Shown in pieces: positions 3,357-32,561 of a DNA stretch of 64,000 nucleotides. The stretch is taken from positions 2,480,001-2,544,000 of the forward strand of contig NZ_CP051299.1 in the NCBI RefSeq assembly GCF_012530535.1, written 5' to 3'. Under the pieces are notes generated by a model that saw only the letters and a program-made list of their open reading frames with translations, was not told where the DNA came from and ran no database searches. This DNA comes from Microcella flavibacter (GTDB lineage: Bacteria > Actinomycetota > Actinomycetes > Actinomycetales > Microbacteriaceae). The first letter of the stretch is position 1; every line of letters starts with the position of its first letter. Made by a program: the position numbers and the translations under genes.

Positions 3357-3416
3357 TCCCGTAAGGCCCGCCCGCAAATCTGCCCGATGAGGGGTGGCAA
3401 ACGCTACAGCTACGGC
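3357..3416 (+). promoter_or_regulatory. Second resolvase upstream element
   Basis: TCCCGTAAGGCCCGCCC at 3357-3373 differs by one base from the element upstream of the first resolvase. The following stretch TGCCCGATGAGGGGTGGC matches 14 of 18 bases in the same place there. The two elements point in opposite directions and bracket cmtR-cadD. A recombination site or shared promoter is likely. The remaining 3188-3356 holds no recognisable gene. Confidence 0.45.
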
Positions 3417-12277: not shown

Positions 12278-12302
12278 CTCCGATCTGCAGGCGTGATACC
12301 GC

Positions 12303-12315
12303 GACGGTTCATTTC
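12303..12315 (+). repeat. 13-base direct repeat, also at 15108-15120
   Basis: GACGGTTCATTTC occurs at 12303-12315 and again at 15108-15120. The two copies enclose the DUF305 membrane gene, the resA'-resB' scar and the APC permease. They could mark an inserted or recombined segment, but a 13-base match may also arise by chance. Confidence 0.25.
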
Positions 12316-12454
12316 GCTTCGAAGTGATTGTGGCGGCGTCATGTCGCACCTTCTCGTACAGCTGGGTCGTCCTTACTCCATCGCTCCGAACCGGTCAAGG
12401 CATTGCCCGCGCAGTCTGATTAGTGCTTCGGTGAATGCCCATCTGGAGGTTCTG

Positions 12455-13072
12455 ATGGCTAAGAAGGGCACGCCCACCGGTACCCGACATGAGGCGATGC
12501 ACGAAGATGAATCCGACCAAAAGCGGGGCCACGGTACTCCACAGAAGTACCTTCGGTTCGCGGCGATGATCGTGACGTCCATGGTTGTCATGTACTTCGT
12601 CATGTTCGCCAGCGTTTGGGAGTGGTCGCACATCCGCTTCAGCGAAAGCCGAGTCTTCATGGCCGTGACAATGGGCGGCACGATGGGGTTGGTGATGCTT
12701 GCCTGGATGCTCGGGATGTACAAGAGCGTGAAAGGGAACATCGCGGTTGTCGTCGGCAGCGTGCTCCTGATTACCGGCGGCATCGCGCTAGACCGAAGCC
12801 AAGCCACAGTCGATGATGCCGGCTTCATGCAAGCGATGATTCCCCACCACTCCATGGCCATCACGCGCTCAGAGCGGTTCCAGAATGCTGACGTCCGCGT
12901 GTGCGAGCTCGCGGTGGAGATCAGCGAGGCGCAGAGGCGTGAGATCGATGAGATGGACTGGCTGATTCGCGACATCGCTGAGAACGGACTAGCGACGACT
13001 GCGGAAGCCGCGGCGGGGCGGGAAGTCCCGGACTTCAGTCAAGCCGCCGCGCGAAGTTGCGACACCGATTGA
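12455..13072 (+). CDS. Membrane-anchored DUF305 protein
   Basis: A 205-residue protein from ATG 12455 with GGAGG nine bases upstream. Three Met-rich membrane helices (YLRFAAMIVTSMVVMYFVMF, a MGGTMGLVMLAWMLGMY segment, and IAVVVGSVLLITGGIAL) precede a DUF305 domain with MQAMIPHHSMAITRSE. Compared with the lipoprotein at 5190-5777, the HH motif is kept but the second repeat is absent. Met-rich helices plus HHxM suggest copper or silver binding at the membrane. It stands alone on the plus strand. Confidence 0.8.
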   Translation: MAKKGTPTGTRHEAMHEDESDQKRGHGTPQKYLRFAAMIVTSMVVMYFVMFASVWEWSHIRFSESRVFMAVTMGGTMGLVMLAWMLGMYKSVKGNIAVVVGSVLLITGGIALDRSQATVDDAGFMQAMIPHHSMAITRSERFQNADVRVCELAVEISEAQRREIDEMDWLIRDIAENGLATTAEAAAGREVPDFSQAAARSCDTD

Positions 13073-15094: not shown

Positions 15095-15317
15095 AGCTTC
15101 CGGCATTGACGGTTCATTTCCAACCCACGCGAACTAAGCGGATGACATAAGACGGGTTATCCGACGGCCCGTGCTCCAAGGTGTTCGCTGGCCAAAGGTC
15201 GGCCAGAGATCGAGCGACCGAGGCCGGCGCTGGCGCCCTCCCCCGCCGCGGCCCGCTCATCCGCGCGGGTAGGCTGAGAGCATCCGGCACGCCCTCGAAT
15301 CTGGAGCCCTCGCCACC

Positions 15318-17696
15318 GTGAATCAGCCCACGCCGCACGCCGCCGCCCCCGACGACTCCGGGGAGCAGCACCCGGCGCACGACGAGATGGATCACGAGCG
15401 CCGCCACCACCCCGACACCGTCGACGACGCGGCCGCGACCCCCGACAAGGAGCAGCCGTACGAGGCGCTCGGGCTCAAGACCGACGAGTACGAGGCCATC
15501 AAGGCGCTGCTCGGCCGGCGCCCCACGAGCGGCGAGCTCGCCATGTACTCGGTGATGTGGAGCGAGCACTGCTCGTACAAGTCGTCGAAGGTGCACCTCA
15601 AGCAGTTCGGCCAGAAGGTCAACGACGAGATGCGGAAGCACCTCATGGTCGGCATGGGCGAGAACGCGGGCGTCGTCGACGTCGGCGAGGGCTGGGCCGT
15701 CACCTTCAAGATCGAGAGCCACAACCACCCCAGCTACATCGAGCCCTTCCAGGGCGCGGCGACGGGCGTCGGCGGCATCGTGCGCGACATCATCTCGATG
15801 GGCGCGCGCCCCGTCGCCGTCATGGATGCTCTGCGCTTCGGCGCCATCGACCACCCCGACACGGCGCGCGTCGTCCCCGGCGTCGTCAGCGGCATCAGCC
15901 ACTACGGCAACTGCCTGGGCCTTCCGAACATCGGTGGCGAGACCGTCTTCGACTCCGTGTACCAGGCCAACCCGCTCGTCAACGCGCTCGCCGTCGGCGT
16001 GCTGCGCCACGAGGACCTGCACCTCGCCAACGCCCGCGGCATCGGCAACAAGGTCGTGCTCTTCGGGGCGCGCACGGGCGGCGACGGAATCGGCGGCGCA
16101 TCCATTCTCGCGAGCGACACGTTCAGCGAGGGCGGGCCGACGAAGCGCCCGGCCGTGCAGGTCGGCGACCCCTTCGCCGAGAAGGTGCTCATCGAGTGCT
16201 GCCTCGAGCTGTACCGCGGCGACCTCGTGGAGGGCATCCAGGATCTCGGCGCCGCCGGCATCTCATGCGCCACGAGCGAGCTCGCGTCGAACGGCGACGG
16301 CGGCATGGTCATCGACCTCGACGCCGTGCTGCTGCGCGACCCGTCGCTCACGGCGGAGGAGATCCTCATGTCGGAGAGCCAGGAGCGCATGATGGCGATC
16401 GTCGCGCCCGACAAGCTCGATGCGTTCCTCGCCGTGACCGCCAAGTGGGATGTCGAGACGAGCGTCCTCGGCGAGGTCACCGACACCGGGCGCCTCGTGA
16501 TCCACTGGCGCGGCGAGACGATCGTCGACGTCGACCCGACCACGGTCGCCGTCGACGGCCCGGTCTACAACCGCCCGTTCCACCGGCCCGAATGGCTGGA
16601 TGCCCTGCAGGCCGACGGCGCCGCCCGACTCGCTCGCCCCGCTGACGACGCCGAGCTGCGCGCGCAGGCGCTGCAGGTGCTCGGCGGCCCGAACCTCGCC
16701 GACACGGCCTGGATCACCAACCAGTACGACTACTACGTCATGGGCAACACGGCCCTCGCGACGCCCGACGACGCCGGCATGATCCGCGTCGACGAAGAGA
16801 GCGGTCTCGGCGTCGCGCTCGCGACCGACGCCAACGGCCGCTACTGCCAGCTCGACCCGTACGTCGGCGCGCAGCTCGCGCTCGCCGAGGCGTACCGCAA
16901 CGTCGCGACCTCGGGCGCGACTCCCCTCGCGGTCTCGGACTGCCTCAACTTCGGCAGCCCCGAGAACCCCGACGTCATGTGGCAGTTCGAGCGGGCCGTC
17001 ACGGGTCTCGCCGACGCGTGCCTCGAGCTGGGCATCCCCGTCACGGGCGGCAACGTCTCGTTCTACAACCAGACCGGCGACGTGCCCATCCACCCGACCC
17101 CCGTCGTCGCCGTCTTGGGCGTCATCGACCACGTCGACCGCCGCCTGCCAGCGGGCTGGCAGGACGAGGGCGAGAACCTCTACCTGCTCGGGCTAACGCG
17201 CGACGAGCTCGACGGCTCGGTGTGGGCCGACGTCGTGCACGGCCACCTCGGCGGACTGCCCCCGCAGCTCGACCTCGCGGCCGAGAAGAACCTCGCGGGG
17301 CTGATGTCGGCCGCGGCCGAGGAGGGGCTCGTCACCTCCGCGCACGACCTGTCCGAGGGCGGCCTGCTCGCGACCCTGGCGGAAGGTGTCCTGCGCTTCG
17401 GCGTCGGCGCGCGCGTCTGGCTCACGGAGCTCATGGAGCGCGACGGGGTGGATGCTGTCGCCGCACTCCTCTCCGAGTCGCAGGCCCGCGTGCTCGTGTC
17501 GGTGGCTCGCGAAGACGACGTGAAGTTCCGCGGCCTGTGCGAGGGGCGCGACGTGCCCGTGCTGCGCGTCGGCGTCACCGACAGCGAGGTCGACGGCCTC
17601 GAGATCCAGGACCGCTTCACGCTCTCGCTCGCCGAGCTGCTCCGCGCGCACCGCGCAACCCTGCCCGAGCGTTTCGGCGCGGTCGTCGGGGGCTAG
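15318..17696 (+). CDS. purL: Phosphoribosylformylglycinamidine synthase subunit II
   Basis: A 792-residue enzyme that turns FGAR, ATP and glutamine-derived ammonia into FGAM in purine synthesis, working with PurQ and PurS (not in the window). [12 protein letters not shown] holds the catalytic His. [21 protein letters not shown] is the nucleotide region, [10 protein letters not shown] and [13 protein letters not shown] follow, and a second half of the same fold has [10 protein letters not shown]. The first 45 residues, rich in Asp/His/Pro, are not part of the family core, so the true start may be later. It is an isolated core gene between two accessory blocks. Confidence 0.95.
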
Positions 17697-17708
17697 ATGT
17701 ACTGAGTC

Positions 17709-17831
17709 ATGACCTGGTTGATTGGCAGGGCCTTGACCGTCGAACGCGTCGCCCAGGGCCGCCCAGTCGCTCACGTCGCAGCCGAGCTGGGCGTCTCACG
17801 ACAGGCCACTTATCGCGGGGTCCGTCGGTTC
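17709..17831 (+). pseudogene. IS481-like transposase N-terminal remnant
   Basis: Just after purL, ATG 17709 opens a frame with GRPVAHVAAELGVSRQATY followed by RGVRRF. This is the helix-turn-helix start of an IS481-type transposase. The similarity ends near 17831, and the rest of that frame, which stays open into the multicopper oxidase gene, has no transposase features. It looks like the scar of an insertion that marks the left edge of the following island. Confidence 0.6.
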
Positions 17832-18299
17832 CCGTCTGCGTTTCCCTTCGAGCCGCTCTTCGGCCCGGCTGGAGGCCCCTCGCGAATCTTCATCGTGAGC
17901 GCGTCCGCGGCGACGCAAACGACGGACAGACGTCGCTCCAACTGGCCTGCCATAGAACCCGCGCGGATCCAGGACGAAACCCTGGGTCCGCGTTCAGCGA
18001 TAGAGACCTTCGACCCTATCCCTCAAGGAATATCCGCGGAATACTCGAGACGTTATCGATACACCGGAGTCGGAGCGTCGTTGTGGAGTCAGCCCCTGCG
18101 CTCGCGTCCCTTTCGGCGGCCCGTCAGCCGTCGCGGTGAGGGAGGCGGGCGTATGCCGCTCCTCGGCGAACACTGGTCCGACGCTACGGCGCCCGGTCTT
18201 CATCTCCACCGGACAGCGCCGACCCTGCACTCCGACGCCGACGACCGGGGCACCGTCGTGACCGAGGACACCGGGATCGACACTCCAGAGAGGACCGGC
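17832..18299. other. Island-edge intergenic region
   Basis: No gene is supported here apart from the open frame shared with the oxidase. The region holds the hairpin at 17962-17992 and an AT-richer stretch at about 18020-18065 where a promoter for the copper operon could lie. I find no clear CsoR or other operator. Confidence 0.4.
17962..17992 (+). terminator. Strong hairpin downstream of purL
   Basis: CGCGGATCCAGG at 17962-17973 pairs with CCTGGGTCCGCG at 17981-17992, 11 of 12 positions with one G-U, across a seven-base loop. It lies 265 bases after purL and before the copper operon, so it may insulate the two, although an IS-derived origin is also possible. Confidence 0.45.
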
Positions 18300-19793
18300 A
18301 TGACCCCCGCGAGCCGCAGCCCCAGCATGACCAGGCGCGGCTTCCTCGCCGTGGGCACCGGCACCATCGCCGCGGTCGCTCTCGCTTCCTGCGCGACCCG
18401 GCCGCGCTACGTCACTCCGACCGGCGCGGCGGTGCGTCAGGCAGAACGTGCCCGCGGCGGGACCGGCCGGGTCGCCCGTGTCGACCTGGTGGCCGCCCCG
18501 ACGCAGATCGACCTCGCCGGCACCACGGCGAAGACCTGGAGCTTCGGGCCGGTGCCGGCGCCGACGATTCGGCTGACAGCGGGTGACACGCTGCGCGCAA
18601 CCGTGCGCAACCGGCTCCCCGCCGATACGTCCGTGCACTGGCACGGGCTGGCGCTGCGCAACGACATGGACGGTGTCCCCGGCGCGACCCAGGCGCCGAT
18701 CGGCGCAGGCGAGGACTTCACGTATGAGTTCGTCACCGCGCAACCGGGCACCTACTGGTTCCATCCGCACGTCGGCGCCCAGCTGGACCGTGGCCTGTAC
18801 GGGGCACTCATCGTCGATGACCCGGACGAGCCCCTGGCCTACGACGAGGAGTGGGTGGTGATCCTCGACGACTGGCTCGACGGGGTGACCGGCACCCCCG
18901 ACGAGGTGCTCGAGGAGCTGCGCGGAGGGATGGGCGGGATGATGGGCGGCGGTGGCCACATGATGATGGGTGCGCGCTCAGCGCTGCTCGGCGGGGACGC
19001 CGGCGACGTGTTCTACCCGCACTACCTCATCAACGGCCGCCCGCCCGCCGACCCGGAGACCTTCACCAGCACCCCCGGACGACGTCTGCGGATCAGGATC
19101 ATCAACGCGGGCAGCGACACCGCGTTCCGGGTGGCGCTCGGCGGTCACAAACTTACCGTCACCCACAGCGACGGGTTCCCGGTGGACCCGGTGGAAACCG
19201 ACTCGGTCCTGATCGGCATGGGTGAGCGCTACGACGCGCTGGTCACCCTCCGCGATGGCGCGTTTCCGCTCGTCGCCGCCGCGGAAGGCAAAGGCGAGAT
19301 GGCGCAGGCGATCGTCCGCACCGGGTCAGGCGATACCCCACGCGCATCGGCGACCCTCCCCGAACTGTCCGGCTCGGTGCTCACCGCGAGCGGCCTCGCC
19401 GCCGACCGGAGCGTCGTGCTCCCGACGCGCGCGGTCGACCGTGAGCTGACGGCGACCCTGTCCGGCTCGATGATGGGGTACGACTGGGCGATCAATGGGC
19501 GCCGGTTCGACCCGGCCGAGCCGTTGGCCGGCGCGCTCGGCGTGACGCAGGGCGAGCGTGTGCGGCTGCGCATCGAGAACACGACCCAGATGTGGCATCC
19601 GTTCCACCTGCACGGGCACACCTACCAGCACTCCGGAGCGGGACCGCGCAAGGACACCTCGATCATCCTCCCGGGCAAGTCCTTGACAGTCGAGTTCGAC
19701 GCCGACAACCCTGGGCTCTGGGCGGCGCACTGTCACAACATCTATCACGCCGAGGCCGGGATGATGACCATCCTCGGTTACCACGCCGCCTGA
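18300..19793 (+). CDS. Multicopper oxidase, Tat-exported lipoprotein
   Basis: A 497-residue oxidase from ATG 18300 with GAGAGG upstream. A twin-arginine signal (MTRRGFLAV, Arg12-Arg13) ends in lipobox LASC (Cys31), so the folded enzyme is exported and tethered. Copper ligands are HWHG (113-116), WFHPH (155-157), HPFHLHGH (433-440) and HCHNIYHAE (477-483), all four expected clusters. A Met-rich insert ([16 protein letters not shown]) is like CueO/CopA Met loops that bind Cu(I). It probably oxidises Cu(I) to less toxic Cu(II). It heads an operon with a P1B ATPase 28 bases downstream. Confidence 0.9.
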
Positions 19794-19821
19794 GAACCTC
19801 GATCAGAGAGAGTCCGAACCC

Positions 19822-22368
19822 ATGCACACACGAACCGTTGTCCTGGAAGTCGTCGGCGTCCACTGGGCGTCGTCGAAGTCGATCGTCGAGGCGACCCTCC
19901 TTCGTCAAGCAGGTGTCACCTCGGTGGAGGCCAACCCGGTCGCCCAGACCGCGAACGTCACCTACGACCCCGAACTCACCACTCAGGCCCAGTTGCGCCA
20001 ATGGATCGTCGAGTGCGGGTATCACTGCGCCGGCCAGTCCGTCCCGAATCACATCTGCGATCCCGCCCACGGCGAGCACGAGGCATCGCACGGCAATCAC
20101 AACCACCCTCACGTATCCGCGACCGTTGAGCATGCGGCGCCCGATGTCAATCCGGTTCCTCCGGAGTCGACGCATGAGCACCCAGGGCTCGACCAGGCAG
20201 GGGAGGGGCACGGCACGCACCAGTCGGCGGCCGGGCAGGTCGTCGCCGAGCCGGACGGGGTCAGGGACCATGACGCTCATGCCGCCCCGGCCCGCAGCAG
20301 CCAGGACGTGATGGGGCACGGAGGCGGCCATGGCGGCATGTCGATGGCGTCAATGATCCGCGACATGCGCAACCGGTTCCTGTTCGCGCTGATCATGTCG
20401 ATCCCGATCACTCTGTTCTCCCCGATCGGGCGGGAAGTTCTGGGCTTCACGGCGCCTGCACCGTTCGGGCTGCGGGATGACGTGATCTCCCTGATCCTGT
20501 CCCTGCCCGTGATGTTCTACTCGGCCTGGATCTTCTTCGACGGTGCGTTCAGAGCCCTGAGGGCGCGAACACTGGACATGATGGTGCTCGTCGCCGTCGG
20601 CGTCGGCGCAGGATGGCTCTACAGCTTCATCGTCACCCTCACAGGAGGCGGCGAGGTGTTCTACGAAGCCGCGACCGTGCTGGCGACGTTCGTGTTGCTC
20701 GGCCACTGGGTGGAAATGCGTGCTCGCGGGGGAGCGAACGACGCGATCCGCCGCCTGTTGGAACTCGCTCCCGCTCGTGCCATCGTGATCCGCGACGGGC
20801 AAGAGCTCGAGGTATCCACGTCCGAGGTCATCCCCGGTGACCTGATGCTTGTACGTCCCGGCGCGAAGGTCCCCACCGACGGGGAGGTCGAAGACGGCGA
20901 ATCCGAGGTCGACGAGTCGATGGTCACCGGCGAGAGCATGCCGGTGGAGAAAGCGCCTGGGTCCATGGTTATCGGCGCGACCGTGAACACCGTCGGCACC
21001 CTCCGGGTGCGCGCCACCAAGGTCGGCGCCGACACCGCCTTGGCCCAGATCGTCAAGCTGGTGCAGGAGGCGCAGAACTCCAAAGCCCCCGGTCAGCGGC
21101 TCGCGGACCGCGCCGCGTTCTGGTTGGTGCTGGTCGCCCTGATCGGCGGAAGCGCGACCTTCCTGACCTGGTGGCTGACCGGCGCGCCCGTGCCGACCGC
21201 GATCCTGTTCGCGATCACCGTCGTCGTCATCACCTGCCCGGACGCGCTCGGTCTGGCTACCCCCACCGCGATCATGGTCGGCACCGGGCTCGGCGCCCGA
21301 AGGGGAGTGCTGTTCAAGAACGCTACCGGCATCGAGACCGCCGCCCGCATCGACACCGTCGTCCTCGACAAGACCGGTACCCTCACCAAGGGAGAACCAG
21401 AGGTCACCGACTATGTGCCCGTCGGCGAGGACGACCTTGAGCTGCTCGCGCTGGTGGCCGCCGTCGAACGCGAGTCCGAGCACCCCCTCGCGAAGGCAGT
21501 CGTCGCCTACGCCGAAGCCCGGAACATCCCGCGACGCGCCGCTTCCGCCTTTCGCAACGTCGCGGGGAAGGGGGCGATCGCCACCGTCGATGGCCGGGAG
21601 GTGGCTCTGGGCAACATGCGCCTGATGGCGCAGGAGGGCATCGACATCTCCCCGGTCGAGGACGCCCAGAAGTCCCTCGCCGAGAGCGGGCGCACGGCGA
21701 TCATGTTCGCCGTCGACGGGGAGGTCGCTGGCGTCATCGCACTCGCCGACGCCCCCCGCGAGACCGCCAGAGCCGCTATCGACGCCCTCCATGAGTCCGG
21801 CATTGAGGTGGTGATGCTCACCGGCGACAACCAGCCGACCGCCGAGCGCATCGCATCCCTGCTGGGCATCGACACGGTGATCGCCGAGGTGCTGCCAGAG
21901 GACAAGAGCGCGAAGATCGCCGAACTGCAGCGGGCTGGGAAGAAGGTGGCCATGGTCGGTGACGGCGTCAACGACGCCCCTGCCCTCGCCCAGGCCGACC
22001 TCGGCATCGCCATCGGCGCTGGCACGGATGTCGCCATCGAGACCGCTGACGTGGTGCTGATGCGTTCGGATCCTCTGGATGTCGCGGTCGCGCTGCGGAT
22101 CGGGAAGGGAACACTGCGGAAGATGCGGCAGAACCTGGGCTGGGCCATCGGTTACAACGCCATCGCGCTGCCCATCGCCGCCGGCGTGTTCTTCCCCGCG
22201 TTCGGGATCATGCTCTCCCCGGAGATCGCCGCGATCAGCATGTCCGGCTCGAGCGTGATCGTCGCCGTGAACGCCCTGTTGCTGAAGCGACTCCGGCTGC
22301 CGGCTCAGGAAACCCCCGCGGCGGCGAGCAGTCCCGAGCAGGTGCCCGTCCCCAGCGGTGTCCGGTAG
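19822..22368 (+). CDS. P1B-type heavy-metal ATPase with CPD motif
   Basis: An 848-residue transport ATPase. The N-terminus has an HMA-like fold in which the metal-binding CxxC is replaced (GVHWASSKS). A His-rich linker of about 100 residues follows ([25 protein letters not shown]). Eight membrane helices, TGES, DKTGT (Asp516), the HP motif SEHPLAKA, and TGDNQPTA and [10 protein letters not shown] are present. The membrane metal site is CPD (472-474) rather than CPC or CPH, so ligand chemistry and substrate may differ from CopA or CopB. With the oxidase beside it, copper or silver export is the best guess. Confidence 0.88.
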
Positions 22369-22399
22369 AGCCCCTCATCAGCTACACGCAAAGAAAGCG

Positions 22400-24823
22400 A
22401 TGAACTCAATGAGCACACGTTCAACACGGACGGGCACCGATCCGGTTCTCGACCCGGCGCAGCTGGAGCGGATCAACGCCTGGTGGCGGGCGGCCAACTA
22501 TCTCTCGGTCGGGCAGATCTACCTGCTGGACAACCCGCTGCTTCGGGAGCCGCTACTGCCGGAGCACATCAAGCCCCGGCTGCTCGGGCACTGGGGAACC
22601 ACGCCGGGGCTGAACTTCATCTACGCCCACCTGAACCGGGCCATCATGCAGCGCGATCTGAACACGATCTACGTCATGGGTCCGGGCCACGGCGGGCCGG
22701 GGCCCGTCGCCGCGTCGTGGCTGGAGGGCAGCTACACCGAAACGTACCCGAACATCGCCCAGGATGCCGTGGGCATGCGGCGGCTGTTCCGGCAGTTCTC
22801 CTTCCCCGGGGGTATCCCCAGCCATGTCGCGCCGGAGACGCCCGGCTCCATCCACGAGGGCGGCGAGCTCGGATACGCGCTCTCGCATGCCTACGGGGCG
22901 GCGTTCGACAACCCCGACCTGATCGTGGCGGCGGTGGTCGGCGACGGGGAGGCGGAGACCGGGCCGCTGGCGGCGAGCTGGCAGTCCAACAAGTTCGTCG
23001 ACCCCGCCCGGGACGGCACGGTGCTGCCGATCCTGCACTTGAACGGCTACAAGATCGCCAACCCAACCGTGCTGGCGAGGATCAGCCCCGAAGAGCTGGA
23101 CCACCTGCTGCGCGGCTACGGGCACGCCCCGCACTACGTCGAAGGCGACGACCCCACGCAGATGCACCAGGACTTCGCCCGCACTCTGGACGCCTGCTTG
23201 GACGAGATCCGCGAGATCAAGGACCGCGCACGGGACGGGGACACGCGCCGTCCGATGTGGCCGATGATCGTGCTGCGCTCTCCGAAAGGGTGGACCGGGC
23301 CGAAGGAGGTCGACGGCAAGAAGGTCGAGGGCAGCTGGCGCTCTCATCAGGTCCCGTTCACTCAGGCACGAGAAAACCCCGAACATCGGGCGATCCTAGA
23401 AGCGTGGATGCGCAGCTACCGGCCCGAGGAGCTCTTCGACGAAGCCGGAGCACCGATCGAGGCGATCGCGACCCTGCGTCCCGACGGCGACCGCCGGATG
23501 AGCGCCAACCCGCACAGCAACGGCGGCGGGCTGCTGCGCGACCTGCGGATGCCCGACTTCCGCGACCACGCCCTGCTGGTGCCGACCGCTGGGACGGTCA
23601 CCGGCGAGTCCACCCGGGTGCTCGGTGGGCTGCTGCGCGACGTGATGCTCGCCAACACGGACAACTTCCGGGTCTTCGCACCCGACGAGAACAACTCGAA
23701 CCGGCTCGACGCCGTGCTCGAGGCCACCGACCGGGCGTGGAACGCCGCCACCGCCGCCGACGACGACCACCTCGCCGTCGAGGGCCGGGTGATGGAGATC
23801 CTCTCCGAACACACCCTGCAGGGCTGGCTGGAGGGCTACCTCCTCACGGGCCGGCACGGATTCTTCTCCTGCTACGAGGGCTTCATCCACATCGTGGACT
23901 CGATGTTCAACCAGCACGCCAAATGGCTGACCACCACGAACGACATCCCGTGGCGGCGCCCGGTCGCGTCCCTGAACTATCTCCTCACCTCCCACGTGCG
24001 GCGCCAGGACAACAACGGCTTCTCCCACCAGGACCCCGGCTTCATCGACCACGTCGTCAACAAGAAGCCGGACGTGATCCGGGTGTACCTGCCGCCGGAC
24101 GCGAACACGCTCCTGTCCGTCGCCGACCACTGCCTGCGCAGCCGCCAGTACGTCAACGTCATCGTCGCCGGCAAGCAGCCCCAGCTGCAGTTCCTGACCA
24201 TGGAGCAGGCGATCGAGCACTGCACCAAGGGCATCGGAATCTGGGACTGGGCCAGTAGCGACGACGGACAGGAACCTGACGTCGTCATGGCCTGCGCCGG
24301 CGACGTGCCGACCATGGAGACCCTCGCCGCCGTGATGATCCTGAAATACCACTTCCCCGACCTGCGCATCCGGGTCGTCAACGTCGTCGACCTCATGCGG
24401 TTGAAAGACCAGCGGGCGCACCCGCACGGCCTGTCCGACGAGGACTTTGATGCCCTGTTCACCACGCACGCGCCCGTCGTGTTCGCGTACCACGGCTACC
24501 CGACTCTCATTCACCGGCTCACCTACCGGCGGGCGAACCACGCGAACATGCACATCCACGGCTACCAGGAGGAGGGGACGACCACGACCCCGTTCGACAT
24601 GTGCGTACTCAACGAACTCGACCGCTACCACCTGGCCATCGACGTCATCGACCGGGTGCCGCGGCTGCGCGACGTGTCCGCACACGTCCGCGATGAGCTG
24701 CGCAACGCCCTCATCCGTCACCGCACCTACATTCGCGAGCACGGCGAGGACCTTTCCGAGATCCGCGACTGGACATGGTCAGCGGAGACGGTCCCTTCGG
24801 TCCGCCTCGACGAATCGCCATGA
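22400..24823 (+). CDS. xfp: Phosphoketolase (Xfp)
   Basis: An 807-residue thiamine diphosphate enzyme that splits xylulose 5-P or fructose 6-P with phosphate into acetyl-P and GAP or erythrose 4-P. ATG 22400 is preferred to an upstream GTG inside the ATPase gene. Family signatures are [64 protein letters not shown] and FFSCYEGF. Length fits the family. Its stop overlaps the next start as ATGA. No acetate kinase or phosphotransacetylase is in the window to use the acetyl-P. Confidence 0.95.
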
Positions 24824-27800
24824 AGAGGCCGCCGTCACCTCCCCCTCACGCTCATCAGTTCGAGTCGGCCTACGAGGCGGTGTTGTTCGACATGGATGGT
24901 GTGGTCACCGACACCGCCACCATCCATGCCGCCGCCTGGCAGCGACTCTTCGACGAGGTCCTCCAGGACCCCCGCGCCCACGACGCGGACCTGCGGCCGT
25001 TCGATCCTGTGGAGGACTATCGCCTGTACGTCGATGGCCGAAGCCGCGAGGATGGGGTCGCGGCCTTCCTGGCCGCCCGTGGAATCGAGCTCGAGCCCCG
25101 ACGGCTCGGCGACTCAGAGTGGTCGATCGCGGGGCTCGCCGAACGCAAGAACGACCTGTTTCTGGCCGAACTCGGTACACGAGGTCTGCGGAGCTACCCA
25201 GGCACGACGGACCTGCTGGGCCGGCTTCGCGCCGGCGGCATTCCGGTCGGCCTGGTCACCGCGAGTCGCAACGCCCACCGGATGCTGGCTGAGGCGGGCT
25301 TGGCTGGCATGTTCGACGTGGTCGTGGACGGGGAGATCGCTGCGGAGCAGCATCTGCCGGGCAAACCTGACCCGGCGATGTTCCTCGAGGCCGCCCGTCG
25401 CCTGGGAGTCCAGCCGCAGAGCACCGCGGTTGTCGAGGACGCGATCTCCGGGGTTCAGGCCGCTCATGAGGGCGGATTCGGACTGGTTGTCGGGATCGCG
25501 CGTGAAGGACGTCGGGATGCCCTCGAAGCCAACGGGGCTGACGTCGTCCTGAACGATGTCAGTGAGCTGGACCTCGGTGCCCACATCACCGACCCGTGGA
25601 CCCTCACGTACTCCGGATTCGACCCCGCCCATGAAGGGCATCGGGAGGTGCTGGCAGCACTGGGGAACGGATACCTGGTCACTCGCGGCTCCCGGCCGGA
25701 GCACCGCGACGACGGGACGCACTACCCGGGGACATACCTCGCAGGTGTGTACAACCGCCTCACCAGCCGCATCCACGGTCGGAGCATGGAGGAGGAACAT
25801 CTCGTCAACACGCCGAACTGGCTTCCTCTCGACATCCGAGTCGCCGCCGGACCATGGTGGTCCAGCGGTCGAGTCGCTATGCGCGACGAGCGACGGGATG
25901 TGAGCCTGCGCGAGGGGATCTCCACCCGGCACGTAACCCTCCTCGGCGCCGACGGAGCTGAGCTGAGCGTCGTGCAACGATCCTTCGCTTCCATGGACGA
26001 CCCGCATCTGGCCGTGCAGGAGACCACCCTCACTGCCTCCGGTTGGAGTGGGACGGTCACGCTCCGCGCTGGCCTCGATGCAGGTGTGGGCAACAGGAAC
26101 GTCGCCGAGTATGTCGGATCGGACACCACCCACCTCGGCCCCCCGACGTTCAGCCAGGATGGGGACGTCCTTCTCTGCGAGGTGCGAACCAGGAACAGCG
26201 AGATCGACATCGCCTCGGCCATCCACCTTCGACTCGAGGGAGCTGACGGAGTGTGGCCCGACGCGCGCACACGGCCGGGACGCCGCTACACCAGAGACGT
26301 CGAGCTGGCGCTCATTGACGGGCAACCCGCTACCCTCACCAAGACGGCCGCGATCTTCACCTCGCGCGACCCCGCGATCGCGTCGCCGGCGATCGCCGCA
26401 CTCGATCGACTTGAGGAGCATGGCCGGGACACCCGCGGCCTGGAGGACCGCCACCGGGCCGCCTGGGAGCGACTCTGGCAGCGCTTTCCCCTGACCGTCG
26501 ACGCCGACCCGCGCAGCCAACTCGTTCTCAACCTTCACATCTTCCACCTCATGCAGACGCTCTCCCCCCACACCGCAGCCTTGGATGCCGGCGTGCCGGC
26601 ACGGGGCCTGCACGGCGAGGGGTACCGCGGGCACGTGTTCTGGGACGAGCTCTTCGTTCTTCCGGTACTCGGCCTTCGGCTGCCACAAGTCGCCCGCGCG
26701 ATGCTGCAATACCGATGGCACCGGCTGGGGGCCGCCCGCTCCGCGGCACGGGAGAACGGCATGCCCGGAGCGCTCTTTCCCTGGCAGAGCGGCAGCGACG
26801 GACGCGAGGAGACACCAGATCACCTCTACAACCCCCACTCCCAACGGTGGATGCCCGACCACTCGCACCTGCAGCGCCACGTCGGTTTGGCAGTCGCATA
26901 CAACGCCTGGCAGCACTATCAGGTCACCGGCGACCTCGAGTGGCTTGCCGGGCAGGGTGCCGATCTCATCATCGAAGTCGCCCGGTATTTCGCCGCCTGC
27001 GCCGTTCACGACCCCCATACCGACCGCTTCCATATCGCCGGCGTGATGGGCCCGGACGAGTACCACGACGGATACGGCCACGGCGTCCGCGACAACACCT
27101 ACACGAACGTGATGGTCGCATGGGTGTGCGCCCGCGCCGTCGACGCCCTCCAGGAGTTGGCCGGCCACCCCCGCGACGATGTCGTGGCGCGACTCCGGAT
27201 CGGAGAGGCAGAGATCGCACGCTGGGAGCACGTCAGCCAGCGGCTCGCGATCGCCGTTCACGCCGACGGAATACTCAGCCAGTTCGACGGGTACGAGGAT
27301 CTCATCGAGCTCGACTGGACCGCCTACCGGGACCGGTATGAGAACATCGGCCGGCTCGACCTCATCCTCGAATCCGAGGACGACAGCACCAATCGGTACA
27401 AGCTGGCCAAACAGCCCGACGTCATCATGCTCGTCTATCTGCTTGGCCAGGATGGGCTCCTGCAGCAGCTGGCTGGGCTCGGCTACCCCTTCTCGCAGGA
27501 CGACCTCGTCCGCACCGTGACCTACTACCTCGAGCGCACCTCCAACGGCTCCACCCTCAGCCGAGTCGTTAGCGCCTCCGTCCTCGCCGGCCTCGACGAA
27601 TCCCGATCGTGGTCCCTGTTCCGCGAGGCGCTCATCGCCGACCTGGATGACACCCAGGGGGGAACGACCCGCGAAGGCATCCACCTCGGCGCAATGGCCG
27701 GCACCATCGACCTCGTCGCGCGATCGTTCGTCGGGCTGAGCTACGAACCGACCCGGGTCAGCTTCGCTCCACGACTGCCGCCGCGACTTCCGAGCATCCG

Positions 27801-28023
27801 TCTCCAGTTCGCCTACCGGGGGCACCTGATCGACCTTGAACTCGACCACCAGGCCCTCCGACTGCAGCTGCTGCCCAGCCCAGCACCGCCGATCCGTCTC
27901 CGAGTCGCCATCGAGGAGGTCTCGCTCGCGGGCGGCGAGTCGCACACGTTCGCCCTGGCTCACGAGTTCCAACCGGAAGAACCCCCCGAGAAGTACCACA
28001 CCGAGAGAAGGGCACGCTCATGA
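24820..28023 (+). CDS. Beta-phosphoglucomutase / GH65 disaccharide phosphorylase fusion
   Basis: A 1067-residue two-domain protein. Residues about 18-250 are a HAD phosphatase-fold beta-phosphoglucomutase ([10 protein letters not shown] with Asp24 and Asp26, [25 protein letters not shown]). Residues about 280-1050 are a GH65 phosphorylase with the general acid in GPDEYHDG (Glu747) and [10 protein letters not shown] in the sugar site. GH65 enzymes use phosphate to split trehalose, maltose, kojibiose or similar into beta-glucose 1-P plus glucose, and the mutase makes glucose 6-P. The fusion would pass beta-glucose 1-P directly. Exact disaccharide uncertain. ATGA overlaps on both sides. Confidence 0.9.
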
Positions 28024-29069
28024 GCAAGATCAAGGTCGGCGTCAATGGGTACGGAGTGATCGGCAAGCGCGTCGCGGACGCCGTCGTGCTGCAGCCCGAC
28101 ATGGAGTTGGTCGGCATTGCCGACATCGCCACCGACTGGCGCATCAAATCCGTGCGGGGTCGAATTCCCCTCTTCGCCGCCACTGACCAAGCGCTCACCG
28201 CGATGGCGGCGGAAGGATTGAGCGCAGCGGGTGGCCTCGAGGACCTGCTGGCGGCATCCGACATCATCATCGACACCACCCCCAAGCACGTCGCCGCGGG
28301 CAATCTGCAACGCTACCGCGCGGCCGGGGTGAAGGCAGTCTTCCAGGGTGGCGAATCCCACGAGGTGACCGGACACTCCTTCGTCGCTCAAGCGAACTAT
28401 CACAGCGCTCTGGGCCGCGACACCACCCGCGTCGTGTCCTGCAACACCACGAGCATCGTTCGTGTACTCGGCGCTCTCGACACCGCCGGGCTACTTCTCC
28501 GGGCCCGCGGGGTGCTCATCCGACGCGCCACCGATCCGTGGGAATCCCATCTCGGCGGCATCATGAACACGATGGTCCCCGAGCCGACCATCCCCTCCCA
28601 TCAAGGCCCCGACGCGCAAACTGTGCTACCCGGCCTCGACCTGGTGACAATCGCCGCCAAGGGTGCCCACACCCAGACGCACAACCACTACTGGACGATC
28701 CAATTGACCCGGCACGCGACGCGGGAGGAAGTGCTTGCCGCTCTGCGCGCCGCCCCCCGAATCGCGTTCATACGGATGTCCGACGGTCTGATCGCCCTCA
28801 ACTCCACGATCGAACTGATGCGCGATCTCGGCCGCCCCCGAGGCGATATGTGGGAGGTGGCGGTGTGGGAGGACCTCGTCACCGTTCAGGGCGACGAGCT
28901 CTTTCTGACCTATCAGGTCTACAACGAAGCCATCGTCGTGCCCGAAACCATCGACGCGATCCGGGCACTGACCCGGACCGCCCCCGACGCCGCCGCCTCG
29001 ATGCACATTACCGACGCCACTCTCGGGATGCTCCAGGACTTCCTGCCACCCACCGTGCCGAACAGCTGA
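28020..29069 (+). CDS. Type II (archaeal-like) glyceraldehyde-3-P dehydrogenase
   Basis: A 349-residue dehydrogenase whose order of motifs follows the archaeal type II family, not bacterial GapA. It has a Rossmann start VGVNGYGVIGKRVADAV, the active site VVSCNTTSIVR with Cys141, HQGPDAQTVLP, and AAKGAHTQTHNHYW. Type II enzymes oxidise GAP with NAD(P) and phosphate. Here it would take up the GAP produced by the phosphoketolase encoded two genes earlier. Its ATG overlaps the stop of the fusion gene. I cannot tell the cofactor preference by eye. Confidence 0.88.
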   Translation: MSKIKVGVNGYGVIGKRVADAVVLQPDMELVGIADIATDWRIKSVRGRIPLFAATDQALTAMAAEGLSAAGGLEDLLAASDIIIDTTPKHVAAGNLQRYRAAGVKAVFQGGESHEVTGHSFVAQANYHSALGRDTTRVVSCNTTSIVRVLGALDTAGLLLRARGVLIRRATDPWESHLGGIMNTMVPEPTIPSHQGPDAQTVLPGLDLVTIAAKGAHTQTHNHYWTIQLTRHATREEVLAALRAAPRIAFIRMSDGLIALNSTIELMRDLGRPRGDMWEVAVWEDLVTVQGDELFLTYQVYNEAIVVPETIDAIRALTRTAPDAAASMHITDATLGMLQDFLPPTVPNS

Positions 29070-29106
29070 ACGCGAGCAACACCGCGCGAAGGAGAAAACG
29101 ATAGCT

Positions 29107-29163
29107 ATGGTGTCAATGTCAGGGCGCTCGGCAGGACTTCTGCTGTGGTCGAACTCGCGATGA
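29107..29163 (+). CDS. 18-codon leader ORF coupled to ubiB-like gene
   Basis: A short frame with AAGGAG 12 bases upstream encodes MVSMSGRSAGLLLWSNSR. Its TGA overlaps the ATG at 29160 as ATGA, the same coupling used elsewhere in this operon. It may serve only to carry ribosomes to the kinase start. No run of regulatory codons is evident, so amino-acid attenuation is unlikely. Confidence 0.45.
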   Translation: MVSMSGRSAGLLLWSNSR

Positions 29164-30803
29164 CCACTCATCGCAACCGGTATCGACGCATCGGCGCCAT
29201 CCTCGAGCGTCACGGGCTCGGTCTGGCCACGGGAGCCCTTGGGCTGAACGGGTGGATCCCCTTCAACAAGGGTATCCTCGGGCATCCGAGCCGGGAGGCG
29301 CCCTACACGAGCCCGGACCATGTCAGGCTGGCGCTGGAGGAACTCGGTCCCACCTTCATCAAGCTCGGCCAGCTGCTGTCTACCCGGACCGACCTGCTTT
29401 CCCCTGACTATCTCGCTGAGCTCGCCAAGCTGCAGGACGACGCGCCTCCTGAGGACTGGGAACCGATCAGGGCCGTGATCCGAGAGGAGCTCGGCGCCGA
29501 ACCCGAACAGGTATTCGCGCAGTTCGACAGACAGCCGCTCGCTGCGGCGTCGATCGGTCAGGCCTATGCGGCGACTCTTCAGGACGGCACGCAAGTCGTC
29601 GTGAAGGTCCGTCGGCCAGGTGTGGTCGCCCAGGTCGCCGAAGACCTGGAGATCCTGCAGAACCTCGCCGAGCGTGCGGACAAGCGATGGGAGGCTGCGC
29701 GTCATTACAACCTGATCGGAATTGTCGAGGATTTCTCCCGAACGCTACGCGCGGAGCTCGACTACCTCCAGGAGGGGCGAAGTGCGGAACGATTCGCCAC
29801 CGATTTTGCCGACTCGCCCGATGTCGCCATCCCGCGGGTGTTCTGGGAGACGACCACCTCACGAGTGTTGACCCTGGAGCGGATGCAGGGGATCGGCATC
29901 GATGACATCTCCGCCCTCGACGCCGCTCGCATCGACCGGCACCAACTCGCCCAACGGGGCGCGAACCTCATCCTCACCATGATCTTCGAGAACCGCTTCT
30001 TTCACGCCGACCCCCACCCCGGCAACATGTTCGTTCAGGCCAACGGCTCGATCGCCTTGATCGATTTCGGAATGGTCGGGGAGCTTGACGAGGACGTGGC
30101 GGACGAACTCTCCGACGTGCTGCTGGCCATTGCCGAGGGAGACGACGACGCGCTCACCACGGCGCTCGTGAAACTGTCGATCACGAAGGACAGCTTCGAC
30201 CGAACCGAGCTCCGCCGCTCCCTCGCCACCTTCCTCTCGAATTACCGCGGCCGCCCACTATCCGAGATCAACGTCACCCACCTTCTCGGACAGTTGCTCG
30301 CCCTTCTGCGCCAGCATCATCTCCAGCTCCCGCATGAGACGGCGCTGCTGTTCAAGGTGCTCATGATGGCGGAGGGCTTGGCGGCACGACTCGACCCGCC
30401 GTTCGAGATGCTGCAGGCGCTCACCCCCTTCTCGGAGCGGCTTGTGCAGAGACGGCTCTCGCTTCCTGCCCTTGCGAAGCGCTGGGCGCGGGCATCTGCG
30501 AATACACGAGACTTCCTCCTCGAGTTGCCCGGGGCGCTCCGCCGAGCGGGCCAGATCCTGGAGACCAGCGGCTTGGAGGTGCACCTGCGCGCCCGCGAAC
30601 TGGAACCGCTCGTCGGCCGCGCCGAGCGCATCGGCAATCGCCTCATCGCCGGGATGATCGCCGCCGCGCTGATCAACGGCATCGGCGAGCTCGTCAGCGG
30701 CAACGCCCGGTGGCGACCGCGGGAAGGCGCCATGATCCGCGCTGGCGCCACCATGATCAGCGCCCTGGGCGGCTACCTCCTGTGGACTACGCGGCGGCGA
30801 TGA
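29160..30803 (+). CDS. ABC1/AarF/UbiB-family atypical kinase
   Basis: A 547-residue protein; ATG 29160 is favoured over GTG 29145 because of the coupled leader ORF. The family signature KxGQ is in TFIKLGQLLSTR, and the Ala-rich nucleotide loop (PLAAASIGQAYAA) replaces the glycine loop. VVVKVRRPG holds the ATP Lys, FFHADPHPGNM the catalytic loop and LIDFGMVG the metal Asp. Two hydrophobic C-terminal segments suggest membrane attachment. The family supports isoprenoid quinone biosynthesis or lipid homeostasis. In this operon it may help respiratory quinones under metal stress, which is speculative. Confidence 0.88.
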   Translation: MTTHRNRYRRIGAILERHGLGLATGALGLNGWIPFNKGILGHPSREAPYTSPDHVRLALEELGPTFIKLGQLLSTRTDLLSPDYLAELAKLQDDAPPEDWEPIRAVIREELGAEPEQVFAQFDRQPLAAASIGQAYAATLQDGTQVVVKVRRPGVVAQVAEDLEILQNLAERADKRWEAARHYNLIGIVEDFSRTLRAELDYLQEGRSAERFATDFADSPDVAIPRVFWETTTSRVLTLERMQGIGIDDISALDAARIDRHQLAQRGANLILTMIFENRFFHADPHPGNMFVQANGSIALIDFGMVGELDEDVADELSDVLLAIAEGDDDALTTALVKLSITKDSFDRTELRRSLATFLSNYRGRPLSEINVTHLLGQLLALLRQHHLQLPHETALLFKVLMMAEGLAARLDPPFEMLQALTPFSERLVQRRLSLPALAKRWARASANTRDFLLELPGALRRAGQILETSGLEVHLRARELEPLVGRAERIGNRLIAGMIAAALINGIGELVSGNARWRPREGAMIRAGATMISALGGYLLWTTRRR

Positions 30804-30828
30804 CGTTGCGCTCGGAGAAGGCACATCA

Positions 30829-30951
30829 ATGAGCAGGACCCACGTCGGTGACACAGGCAGGGGCGAGAGCCTGCCCGTCGGCTCTCGCGGTCGTGAAGGG
30901 CCCCCGCCACCACCCGGCGAGGGCCCTTCGAGCCTGCGGAGAGCGACCTAG
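30829..30951 (+). pseudogene. Truncated ORF at the island right edge
   Basis: After GGAGAAG a 40-codon frame starts at ATG 30829 (MSRTHVGDTGRGESLP), 25 bases after the kinase stop. It runs through two hairpins into the 3' end of the convergent actP gene. The good ribosome site with no recognisable product suggests the first codons of a gene whose body was lost when the island joined core DNA. Confidence 0.35.
30864..30929. terminator. Two hairpins between convergent transcripts
   Basis: CGAGAGCC (30864-30871) pairs perfectly with GGCTCTCG (30880-30887). GAAGGGCCCCCGCC (30895-30908) pairs with GGCGAGGGCCCTTC (30916-30929) in 13 of 14 positions, across a seven-base loop. They sit between the island operon (+) and actP (-), and the second can end transcription from both sides. 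Confidence 0.75.
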
Positions 30952-32561
30952 TGGTCGACCGACTTCTCGGCGCCGACTCCGGTGAGGGAGCGCACCTCCA
31001 TCTCGGCCTGCTTGTCCAGGCTCTCCTTGTTCTTGTCGAGCATCGTGCCCAGCCAGCCCAGGAAGAAGGCCAGCGGGATGGAGACGATGCCGGGGTTCGA
31101 CAGCGGGAAGATGCTGAAGTCGACGCCCTGGATCATCGAGGTCGGGCCGCCCGAGACGACCGGCGAGAGGCTGATCAGCAGGATCGCCGAGCCGAGACCG
31201 CCGTACATGCTGAACAGCGCGCCCTGGGTGGTGAAGCGGCGCCAGAACAGCGAGTAGATGATCGTCGGCAGGTTCGCCGAGGCGGCCACCGCGAAGGCGA
31301 GCGCGACGAGGAACGCGACGTTCTGCCCGTTGGCCCCGATGCCGCCGATGATGGCGACGATGCCGATGACGATGACCGTGCGACGGGCCACCTTGACCTC
31401 GGCGCCGGCGGGCGGGTCGCCCTTCTTGATGACGCTCGCGTAGATGTCGTGCGAGAAGGATGCCGCCGCCGTGATCGTGAGACCGGCCACGACCGCGAGG
31501 ATCGTCGCGAAGGCGATCGCCGAGATGATGCCGAGCAGCACCGAGCCGCCCAGCTCGAAGGCGAGCAGCGGGGCCGCGGAGTTGGCGCCGCCCGGAGCAG
31601 CGGCGATGCGCTCGGCGCCGATGAGGGCCGCCGCGCCGTAGCCGAGCACGAGGGTGAACAGGTAGAAGATGCCGATGAGCCAGATGGCCCAGACCACGCT
31701 CTTCCGGGCCTCCTTCGCCGTCGGCACCGTGTAGAAGCGCATGAGCACGTGCGGCAGGGCCGCGGTGCCGAGCACGAGCGCGAGGCCGAGCGAGAGGAAG
31801 TCGAGGCGACTGACGTCGCTGATGCCGTACTGCAGGCCCGGAGCGAGCACCGCGGGGTTGCCCGAGGTCTCGACGGCCGAGTCGAGCAGCGTCGACAGGT
31901 TGAAGCCGTTGAGCGCGAGCACCCAGATCGTCATGATGCCGGCGCCCGCGATGAGCAGCACCGCCTTGATGATCTGCACCCAGGTGGTGCCCTTCATGCC
32001 GCCGACGAGCACGTAGAGGATCATGAGCGCGCCGACGACGGCGATGACGACCGACTGGCCGACCCGCTCCTCGATGCCGAGCAGCAGGGCCACGAGCCCT
32101 CCGGCGCCCGCCATCTGCGCGAGCAGGTAGAAGAAGCAGACGACGAGGGTCGAGATCGCGGCGGCGATGCGCACGGGGCGCTGCTTGAGGCGGAACGCCA
32201 GCACGTCGGCCATCGTGAACTTGCCGGTGTTGCGCAGCAGCTCGGCGACGAGCAGCAGGGCCACGACCCAGGCCACGAGGAACCCGATCGAGTAGAGGAA
32301 CCCGTCGTAGCCGTTGATCGCGATGGCGCCGACGATGCCGAGGAACGAGGCGGCCGAGAGGTAGTCGCCCGCGATGGCCGAGCCGTTCTGGCCGCCCGTG
32401 AACGAGCGCCCGGCGGCGTAGTAGTCGGCCGCGGTCTTGTTGTTGCGCGATGCCCGGAACACGATGATCATCGTGACCGCCACGAAGGCGCCGAAGATCG
32501 CGATGTTGAGGATCGGGTCGCCCGGCGAGGTCGAGGCGGTGTCGGCGGCGAGACGCAGCAT
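30948..32561 (-). CDS. actP: Cation/acetate symporter (SSS family)
   Basis: A 537-residue sodium:solute symporter from ATG 32561, which overlaps the DUF485 stop (TGATG). About 13 membrane helices are present. Family motifs are YYAAGRSFTGGQNG, IAGDYLSAASFLG, LPHVLMRFYT and SFSHDIYAS. ActP/MctC-type proteins import acetate, propionate or pyruvate. The DUF485 partner just upstream is the usual companion. The acetate gene name rests on these motifs; the actual monocarboxylate is unknown. Confidence 0.88.
   Translation of the reverse strand: MLRLAADTASTSPGDPILNIAIFGAFVAVTMIIVFRASRNNKTAADYYAAGRSFTGGQNGSAIAGDYLSAASFLGIVGAIAINGYDGFLYSIGFLVAWVVALLLVAELLRNTGKFTMADVLAFRLKQRPVRIAAAISTLVVCFFYLLAQMAGAGGLVALLLGIEERVGQSVVIAVVGALMILYVLVGGMKGTTWVQIIKAVLLIAGAGIMTIWVLALNGFNLSTLLDSAVETSGNPAVLAPGLQYGISDVSRLDFLSLGLALVLGTAALPHVLMRFYTVPTAKEARKSVVWAIWLIGIFYLFTLVLGYGAAALIGAERIAAAPGGANSAAPLLAFELGGSVLLGIISAIAFATILAVVAGLTITAAASFSHDIYASVIKKGDPPAGAEVKVARRTVIVIGIVAIIGGIGANGQNVAFLVALAFAVAASANLPTIIYSLFWRRFTTQGALFSMYGGLGSAILLISLSPVVSGGPTSMIQGVDFSIFPLSNPGIVSIPLAFFLGWLGTMLDKNKESLDKQAEMEVRSLTGVGAEKSVDH

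Follow-up and report, generated by a model that had tools for sequence, protein, structure and literature searches.

The stretch of DNA analysed here, referred to as the window, comprises 64,000 nucleotides of Microcella flavibacter (NCBI RefSeq assembly GCF_012530535.1, contig NZ_CP051299.1, positions 2480001-2544000 of a 2.62-Mb single-contig genome) and carries an inserted island in which metal-handling and carbon-metabolism genes follow one another on the same strand. The six genes encode an exported multicopper oxidase, a P1B metal ATPase, a phosphoketolase, a fusion of a beta-phosphoglucomutase (bPGM) family domain with GH65, a type II (archaeal-type) glyceraldehyde-3-phosphate dehydrogenase (GAPDH) and an ABC1/UbiB-like kinase. 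The linkage of the metal genes with the carbon genes is conserved beyond this genome. In our judgement the chances are about even that the island is a mobile copper (soft-metal) resistance module, in which the carbon half would bypass or substitute for steps that are poisoned by the metal.

The island is a 13.2-kb insertion that extends from 17697 to about 30894 and coincides with the six genes, and blastn comparisons revealed that it is missing from this site in three sister genomes. Homology to the sisters ends at purL base 17696 and restarts at 30895 (G018) or 30948 (G023 and G003). The two flanking genes, purL and that of the symporter, lie 143 bp apart in G003; the distance rises to about 280 bp in G023 and to about 2.6 kb in G018. 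Base composition agrees with these homology breaks (G+C about 65-69% in the island and 72-77% to its right), which lends further support to insertion. The island also adjoins purL in G011, a genome from a metagenome, where the match has 97.5% identity across 15.5 kb and the right flank is unlike that of the window.

The initial annotation of this DNA had described six co-directional genes between 18300 and 30803 with ATGA overlaps from the phosphoketolase to the GAPDH. Domain and model matches place all six on the plus strand, and two such four-base overlaps are seen, one between the phosphoketolase and the fusion gene and one between the fusion gene and the GAPDH gene; the other spacings, in order, are 28 bp and 31 bp before them and 90 bp after them. 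The reading frame of the oxidase is open back to 17709 and thus spans a helix-turn-helix remnant, presumably of IS481 likeness, and its probable start is the ATG at 18300 ahead of the leader, which, as read by eye from the sequence, has a twin-arginine motif followed by a lipobox-like cysteine. The oxidase scores below the cut-off of TIGR01480, the model for CopA/PcoA-type copper-resistance oxidases (276.9 vs 478.95 bits). The three XFP domains and the model cut-off together assign the third gene to the xylulose-5-phosphate/fructose-6-phosphate phosphoketolases. The bPGM half of the fusion passes the TIGR02009 cut-off (159.9 vs 153.35) and falls under that of the TIGR01990 equivalog (104.9 vs 189.4), and the best solved relative of the GH65 half is 9lb6, titled trehalose-6-phosphate hydrolase, followed by the kojibiose phosphorylase 3wiq. 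The type II GAPDH scores above the cut-offs of both of its models (TIGR01546, 309.1 vs 232.9; NF003251, 433 vs 185 bits) and has solved relatives in 2czc, 1b7g, 1cf2 and 2yyy; its catalytic cysteine, Cys141 in the SCNTT motif, is invariant in 14 of 14 aligned sequences and aligns with 2czc and 1b7g. A scan of 17500-31200 for sigma-70-like promoters found none where 0.8 were expected. The same interval holds five terminator-like sites against 3.9 expected, and the sole plus-strand site in the island sits within the ATPase gene; in a G+C-rich genome such scans are weakly informative. Rfam and tRNA scans of the window gave no match.

Table 1. Features of the island and its flanks, in window coordinates.
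Feature	Position	Strand	Basis
Whole island, between purL and the actP/MctC-like symporter gene	17697..30894	.	blastn homology breaks and G+C
Helix-turn-helix remnant, transposase-like	17709..17860 (end approximate)	+	weak HTH_23 match, E 7.8e-4, under the Pfam cut-off
Exported multicopper oxidase, 497 aa	18300..19793	+	three Cu-oxidase Pfam domains; RRGFLAVG...LASC leader
P1B metal ATPase, CPD subtype, 848 aa	19822..22368	+	TIGR01525 and TIGR01511 over cut-off; CPD, YN(X)4P, MSGSS
Phosphoketolase, 807 aa	22400..24823	+	NF003619 over cut-off; three XFP domains; sole genomic match
bPGM-family HAD fused to GH65, 1067 aa	24820..28023	+	TIGR02009 over cut-off; GH65 N/m/C Pfam domains
Type II (archaeal-type) GAPDH, 349 aa	28020..29069	+	TIGR01546 and NF003251 over cut-off
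ABC1/UbiB-like atypical kinase	29160..30803	+	PF03109, E 5.6e-81
purL, left chromosomal flank, outside the island	15318..17696	+	NF002290 over cut-off; in 25/26 genus genomes
Monocarboxylate/acetate-type symporter, right flank, outside the island	30948..32522	-	NF058657 over cut-off; match in 13/26 genus genomes, including that of the window

The ATPase belongs to a distinct group of P1B pumps. Its ion-pathway motif is CPD, not CPC, and there is no CxxC in its first 200 residues, which sets it apart from the P1B-1 Cu(I) ATPases of the CopA type, defined by CPC in transmembrane segment 6 (TM6) and CxxC domains, and likewise from the P1B-3 (CopB-type) pumps, which have CPH in TM6. All 52 CPD ATPases compared form one clade (support 1.0), separate from 27 CPC, 8 CPH and 2 SPC pumps; an N-terminal CxxC is found in none of the 52, and their TM8 motif is MSGSS in 46 and MSGST in 6. 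Pumps of this type were seen in Actinomycetota, Pseudomonadota and Chloroflexota, and their neighbour genes make copper the likely substrate. In five loci from records named BMS3Abin03, Chloroflexi, Ardenticatenia and Anaerolineales (L096, L097, L099, L117 and L118), a CPD ATPase gene lies directly or one gene downstream of that for type II GAPDH. The stretches examined there contain neither phosphoketolase nor GH65, which suggests that the older core may consist of the pump and the GAPDH.

To follow the linkage in other organisms, 84,980 species genomes were scanned, which gave 560 confirmed matches, and the best 80 loci were kept, 35 of them actinobacterial. These loci scored highest against an alignment of the island proteins and are therefore biased towards near relatives, and they include near duplicates, such as L053 (a near-identical island), L059-L061 and L068/L072 (a single metagenome-assembled genome, MAG). 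The tested actinobacterial set consists of the 30 type II GAPDH loci for which 14 kb or more of sequence was available. The controls are 32 regions of 20 kb at hand-chosen positions, unmatched for mobile elements, in eight type II GAPDH-bearing genomes that differ from those of the 80 loci, and each category of neighbouring gene rests on one to four seed proteins. A P1B ATPase lies near the type II GAPDH in all 30 loci and is of the CPD type in 28; the GH65 fusion accompanies it in 22, the phosphoketolase in 18, the oxidase in 15, and CsoR and DUF305 in 10 each, and none of these was found in any control. The ABC1 kinase occurs near 13 of the 30 and in one control.

When all 35 actinobacterial loci are counted, the ATPase is present in 32 (21 of 23 genus or MAG groups), and the three loci that lack it are short, with 5.7-11.2 kb available. 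An ATPase together with a phosphoketolase or GH65 is found in 24 of the 35 (16 of 23 groups), as well as in six of 19 regions on plasmids, and this search contradicts the possibility, named at the outset as one that would undo the idea, that the two halves are found together only in this genome. Co-occurrence across whole genomes points the same way. Type II GAPDH (E<=1e-20) is present in 13 of 199 relatives and in only 2 of 394 genomes of the class, including that of the window, and the CPD motif is present in 18 of the 199, among them 12 of the 13 with type II GAPDH. The Fisher p of about 4e-14 (4e-12 when the window genome and its near twin are left out) gives a direction and not exact odds, since the genomes are not independent. 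Around the type II GAPDH gene of the relatives, this ATPase, the phosphoketolase and the GH65 fusion recur in varying order. Six relatives have the CPD pump without type II GAPDH, and in two of these (G043 and G085) a phosphoketolase gene lies beside the pump gene, which is not the case in G087, G091, G151 and G168. The type II GAPDH genes of G003 and G135 (L050 and L051) are split between reading frames, and L052 (G022:C1:1809500-1829499) holds fragments of a second type II GAPDH gene and of a GH65 gene, apparently a decayed copy, in a genome that also has an island with all six genes (L049, in which the phosphoketolase gene is cut by the end of the stretch examined).

The histories of the six genes also appear to be connected. 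Their pairwise divergences correlate in all 15 pairs (Mantel r 0.51-0.87), and the observed r was reached by none of 999 permutations in 14 pairs and by three of 999 in one pair. Gene order is variable, with 20 arrangements among 38 loci, some of which are cut by contig ends. In a tree of 32 phosphoketolases, the copy of the window falls in a clade of 19 (support 0.775), and eight island copies from Microbacterium, Agromyces, Cryobacterium and relatives form another clade (support 1.0), closer to the enzymes on Georgenia, Gemmatirosa and Ancylobacter plasmids than to the clade of the window; a Nocardioides copy stands apart. The existence of two island clades suggests that the phosphoketolase was recruited more than once. 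G099 has two islands (L040 and L045) with phosphoketolases of different clades, as traced through L068 and L072, the loci that match them; identity to the window enzyme is 65% in one and 89% in the other.

Plasmids carry the set as well. Type II GAPDH (E<=1e-20) was found on 35 of 72,556 plasmid records, 16 of which are typed as conjugative. The regions around it were counted for 19 of the 35: 13 contain a P1B ATPase, eight a phosphoketolase or GH65, six both, and 16 at least one copper marker, and the sets adjoin CopY, a CsoR-like regulator, CueP, oxidase and copper-binding genes. On a Rhodococcus pyridinivorans plasmid the order is phosphoketolase, GH65, ATPase, GAPDH and CopY. The set of Corynebacterium marinum and C. 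comes adjoins an oxidase, CueP, a two-component system and a CPH-type ATPase, which indicates that the carbon half is independent of the CPD pump. Citricoccus has phosphoketolase and GH65 genes with a copper ATPase gene about 4 kb away and no annotated type II GAPDH.

An improbable explanation of these associations is that unrelated adaptive genes gather on the same mobile elements and travel together without a joint function. The loci are indeed borne by plasmids and islands, further cargo, for instance merA or an alkylmercury lyase gene, also occurs near these genes, and other islands would make a stricter control than regions unmatched for mobile elements. However, members of these families have come together repeatedly, in many orders and in several phyla; there are translational overlaps in the window island, divergence is correlated, and phosphoketolases of two clades joined the same module.

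The favoured reading is that the two halves of the module act together against copper. In the metal half, the CPD-type ATPase would export copper across the cell membrane, and the exported oxidase would oxidise it. The carbon half would keep up ATP supply and carbon flow while copper poisons lower glycolysis. Phosphoketolase yields acetyl-phosphate, and GH65 phosphorylases release beta-glucose-1-phosphate, which is converted by bPGM. The GH65 domain may thus phosphorolyse a stored alpha-glucoside without ATP cost, the best guess for the substrate being trehalose or trehalose-6-phosphate (the title of 9lb6, and otsB, which adjoins a GH65 gene in Croceicoccus, point to these), and the fused bPGM would turn the product into glucose-6-phosphate. 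The phosphoketolase would then form acetyl-phosphate from fructose-6-phosphate or xylulose-5-phosphate, and the chromosomal AckA and Pta could convert this into ATP or acetyl-CoA. The genome does have one acetate kinase (AckA) and one phosphotransacetylase (Pta), encoded by adjacent genes on the chromosome of the window. It has no phosphoketolase match outside the island, and therefore the phosphoketolase route is a gained function; one type I GapA is present as well, so that the type II GAPDH adds a further form of an activity already there.

The non-homologous type II GAPDH would replace a copper-sensitive GapA. That copper inactivates GapA in Staphylococcus aureus, as the initial annotation had stated, is borne out by the accessible part of a study in which copper(I) inhibits the enzyme (PMC6350627). 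The GapA of the window genome has two nearby cysteines (ASCTTNC), and the type II enzyme has the cysteine of SCNTT without a second one, which is the sole hint in the sequences that it may tolerate the metal better. Under this reading the genes would be induced by copper, and carbon flux would follow this route.

Several observations weigh against the copper reading. There is no copper regulator among the six genes, and a copper-box-like pattern, after that of actinobacterial RicR, occurs seven times in the window against 8.18 expected. The type II GAPDH keeps its active-site cysteine, and the oxidase gene immediately precedes the ATPase gene in only 4 of 38 loci. In one relative (G066) the CPD pump and the type II GAPDH are on separate contigs, the pump gene adjoining a phosphoketolase gene (L198) and the GAPDH gene adjoining CPC and CPH pump genes (L038). 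The Georgenia and Ancylobacter plasmids, matched by phosphoketolase only, have no metal-resistance gene annotated nearby, and the Gemmatirosa plasmid, matched likewise by phosphoketolase alone, is a record without annotation; these three speak against the linkage being general for phosphoketolase. The idea that the island enzymes were hardened against copper by depletion of cysteine was rejected too, as no depletion was seen relative to 45 other proteins drawn from six regions of the genome.

The copper reading also becomes less clear outside the Actinobacteria, where a different explanation has to be weighed, namely that phosphorolysis, phosphoketolase and type II GAPDH make ATP when respiration fails under energy stress or low oxygen, and that the metal genes travel with them since metal-rich habitats are often anoxic. 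We regard this as rather unlikely. Among non-actinobacterial loci, 27 of 45 have any copper marker, and in the long ones a P1B ATPase is present in 14 of 28 and an oxidase in 2 of 28; this, too, counts against a copper role, as do the several loci with arginine deiminase, pyruvate:ferredoxin oxidoreductase (PFOR), acetate kinase or CBS genes, which fit energy stress. Various loci have acetate kinase, glycogen phosphorylase (GlgP) with phosphoglucomutase (PGM), enolase with phosphoenolpyruvate synthase, arginine deiminase or PFOR near the type II GAPDH, and in proteobacterial loci cyclopropane fatty acid (CFA) synthase or a Crp/Fnr regulator can also be found there. GlgP, with or without PGM, occurs near type II GAPDH in other phyla, and its seed matched four of the 19 plasmid regions and one of the 32 controls. 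This suggests that phosphorolysis of stored sugar may be a shared logic, but GlgP is a common gene, so that its nearness is weak evidence and a further caution against the copper reading.

A phosphoribosyl pyrophosphate (PRPP) synthetase and a thymidine-phosphorylase-family protein are encoded near type II GAPDH on some plasmids and chromosomes. Four proteobacterial loci (L134, L127, L131 and L132) combine these two with acetate kinase, a distant phosphoketolase-like protein, CFA synthase and a MerR-family regulator, and represent a larger backup-metabolism set. Copper inhibits PRPP synthetase in S. aureus, according to the accessible part of a second study (PMC10249872). GAPDH and PRPP synthetase are thus both known copper targets in that species, and the other backup functions fit energy stress in general.

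Within the Actinobacteria the neighbours tell against a low-oxygen cluster: universal stress proteins are encoded near only 3 of the 30 loci, and CBS, arginine deiminase and PFOR genes near none of them (single proteobacterial seeds were used, so that distant forms may be missed), compared with the ATPase in every locus, the oxidase in half and CsoR in a third. A plain hypoxia cluster was set aside on these counts as the main explanation for this phylum and kept as a rival. Of the two readings offered by the initial annotation, the carbon bypass under copper stress is therefore favoured in Actinobacteria by the conserved linkage and the copper neighbours and has mixed support elsewhere, and the hypoxia or dormancy alternative loses ground where copper neighbours prevail and gains it outside the phylum, where the partners speak as much for energy stress as for copper. 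Judged by gene neighbourhoods, the copper interpretation is plausible and, in Actinobacteria, the better supported of the two.

In a further scheme, the type II GAPDH would make a metal- or oxyanion-glycerate phosphate adduct, to be exported by a recurrent EamA transporter, in analogy to the handling of arsenate by GAPDH and ArsJ. An EamA gene is indeed near 21 of the 30 actinobacterial loci (e.g. L064:6202-7206) against 1 of 32 controls, it appears in other phyla as well, and in Meiothermus it lies beside pfkA and the type II GAPDH gene. Nevertheless, we consider this highly improbable, as no EamA transporter is encoded among the six genes of the window, no arsenic gene is annotated in the 19 plasmid type II GAPDH regions (where the gene table is incomplete), and the scheme gives phosphoketolase and GH65 no role.

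The surroundings of the island contain further mobile and copper-associated DNA. A second stretch of foreign appearance precedes purL; it carries BNR-repeat and DUF305 genes, including a CopM-like DUF305 gene (4300-5777 and 12293-13072), and homology to two sister genomes breaks off at 15198-15227. Inserted DNA with copper-associated genes therefore lies on either side of purL. Near the left end of the window there are a Mu-type transposase gene and two resolvase-type serine recombinase genes (35-1555, 1440-2036 and 3387-3992).

Explanations of copper resistance usually invoke export, oxidation and sequestration of the metal. A tentative extension of the copper reading, to which we give somewhat less than even credence, is that target replacement and bypass for metals are widespread and horizontally spread, with mobile islands carrying substitutes for copper-poisoned steps, in many lineages coupled to a CPD-type pump. 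The substitutes would be type II GAPDH for GapA, phosphoketolase and phosphorolysis as a way round lower glycolysis, and, in Proteobacteria, PRPP synthetase. If the carbon half does contribute to resistance, bacteria also resist metals by replacing or bypassing the poisoned targets, much as plasmids provide drug-insensitive ones against antibiotics. Bacterial type II GAPDH and the CPD ATPases would then acquire a function, and the finding would point to the enzymes that copper really disables in soil bacteria.

No paper on the linkage of the metal genes with the carbon genes was found in the open literature on phosphoketolase together with copper, GAPDH, plasmids, genomic islands or metal genes, most subscription journals being outside the scope of the search. 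One paper in which such terms occur together deals with other subjects in the relevant passages (PMC2858755). A word search of a paper on copper islands of Alteromonas found neither glyceraldehyde, GAPDH nor phosphoketolase (PMC8478169). Among the accessory elements of Pseudomonas aeruginosa, the accessible part of one study lists a type II glyceraldehyde-3-phosphate dehydrogenase in bin20, together with a MerR-family SoxR regulator and the relaxase of an integrative and conjugative element (PMC7448275).

Comparison with known systems reveals partial likenesses. In GAPDH-ArsJ arsenate resistance, GAPDH makes a substrate that ArsJ exports, and a GAPDH thus sits in a metalloid-resistance locus as the type II enzyme sits in the island; however, that GAPDH is of type I and is paired with a transporter, and the six window genes include no such transporter. 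The lxa locus of Burkholderia cenocepacia is similarly a stress locus with a central-carbon enzyme, a phosphofructokinase, but it encodes six universal stress proteins and the six window genes encode none, so that the island lacks this mark of an lxa-like locus; a search of the text of that paper found none of the terms 'ATPase', 'heavy metal' and 'phosphoketolase' (PMC6127331). As for the pump, a 2017 survey, in its accessible part, set three rhizobial CPD pumps apart as a P1B subtype, group VIc, with which the window pump shares CPD, YN(X)4P and MSGSS, whereas the group is described as having few N-terminal histidines and the window pump has 16 in residues 70-180; the description of the group names neither a function nor a link to carbon genes (PMC5552934). 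Finally, the copper-resistance regions of the Rhodococcus plasmid pRHL3 and the Nocardia plasmid pNF1, unlike the window, have no phosphoketolase, GH65 fusion or type II GAPDH annotated within 10 kb, yet both combine a CPD ATPase of the same clade with a multicopper oxidase and DUF305, as the loci of the module do, and pRHL3 has a CsoR-like regulator in addition.

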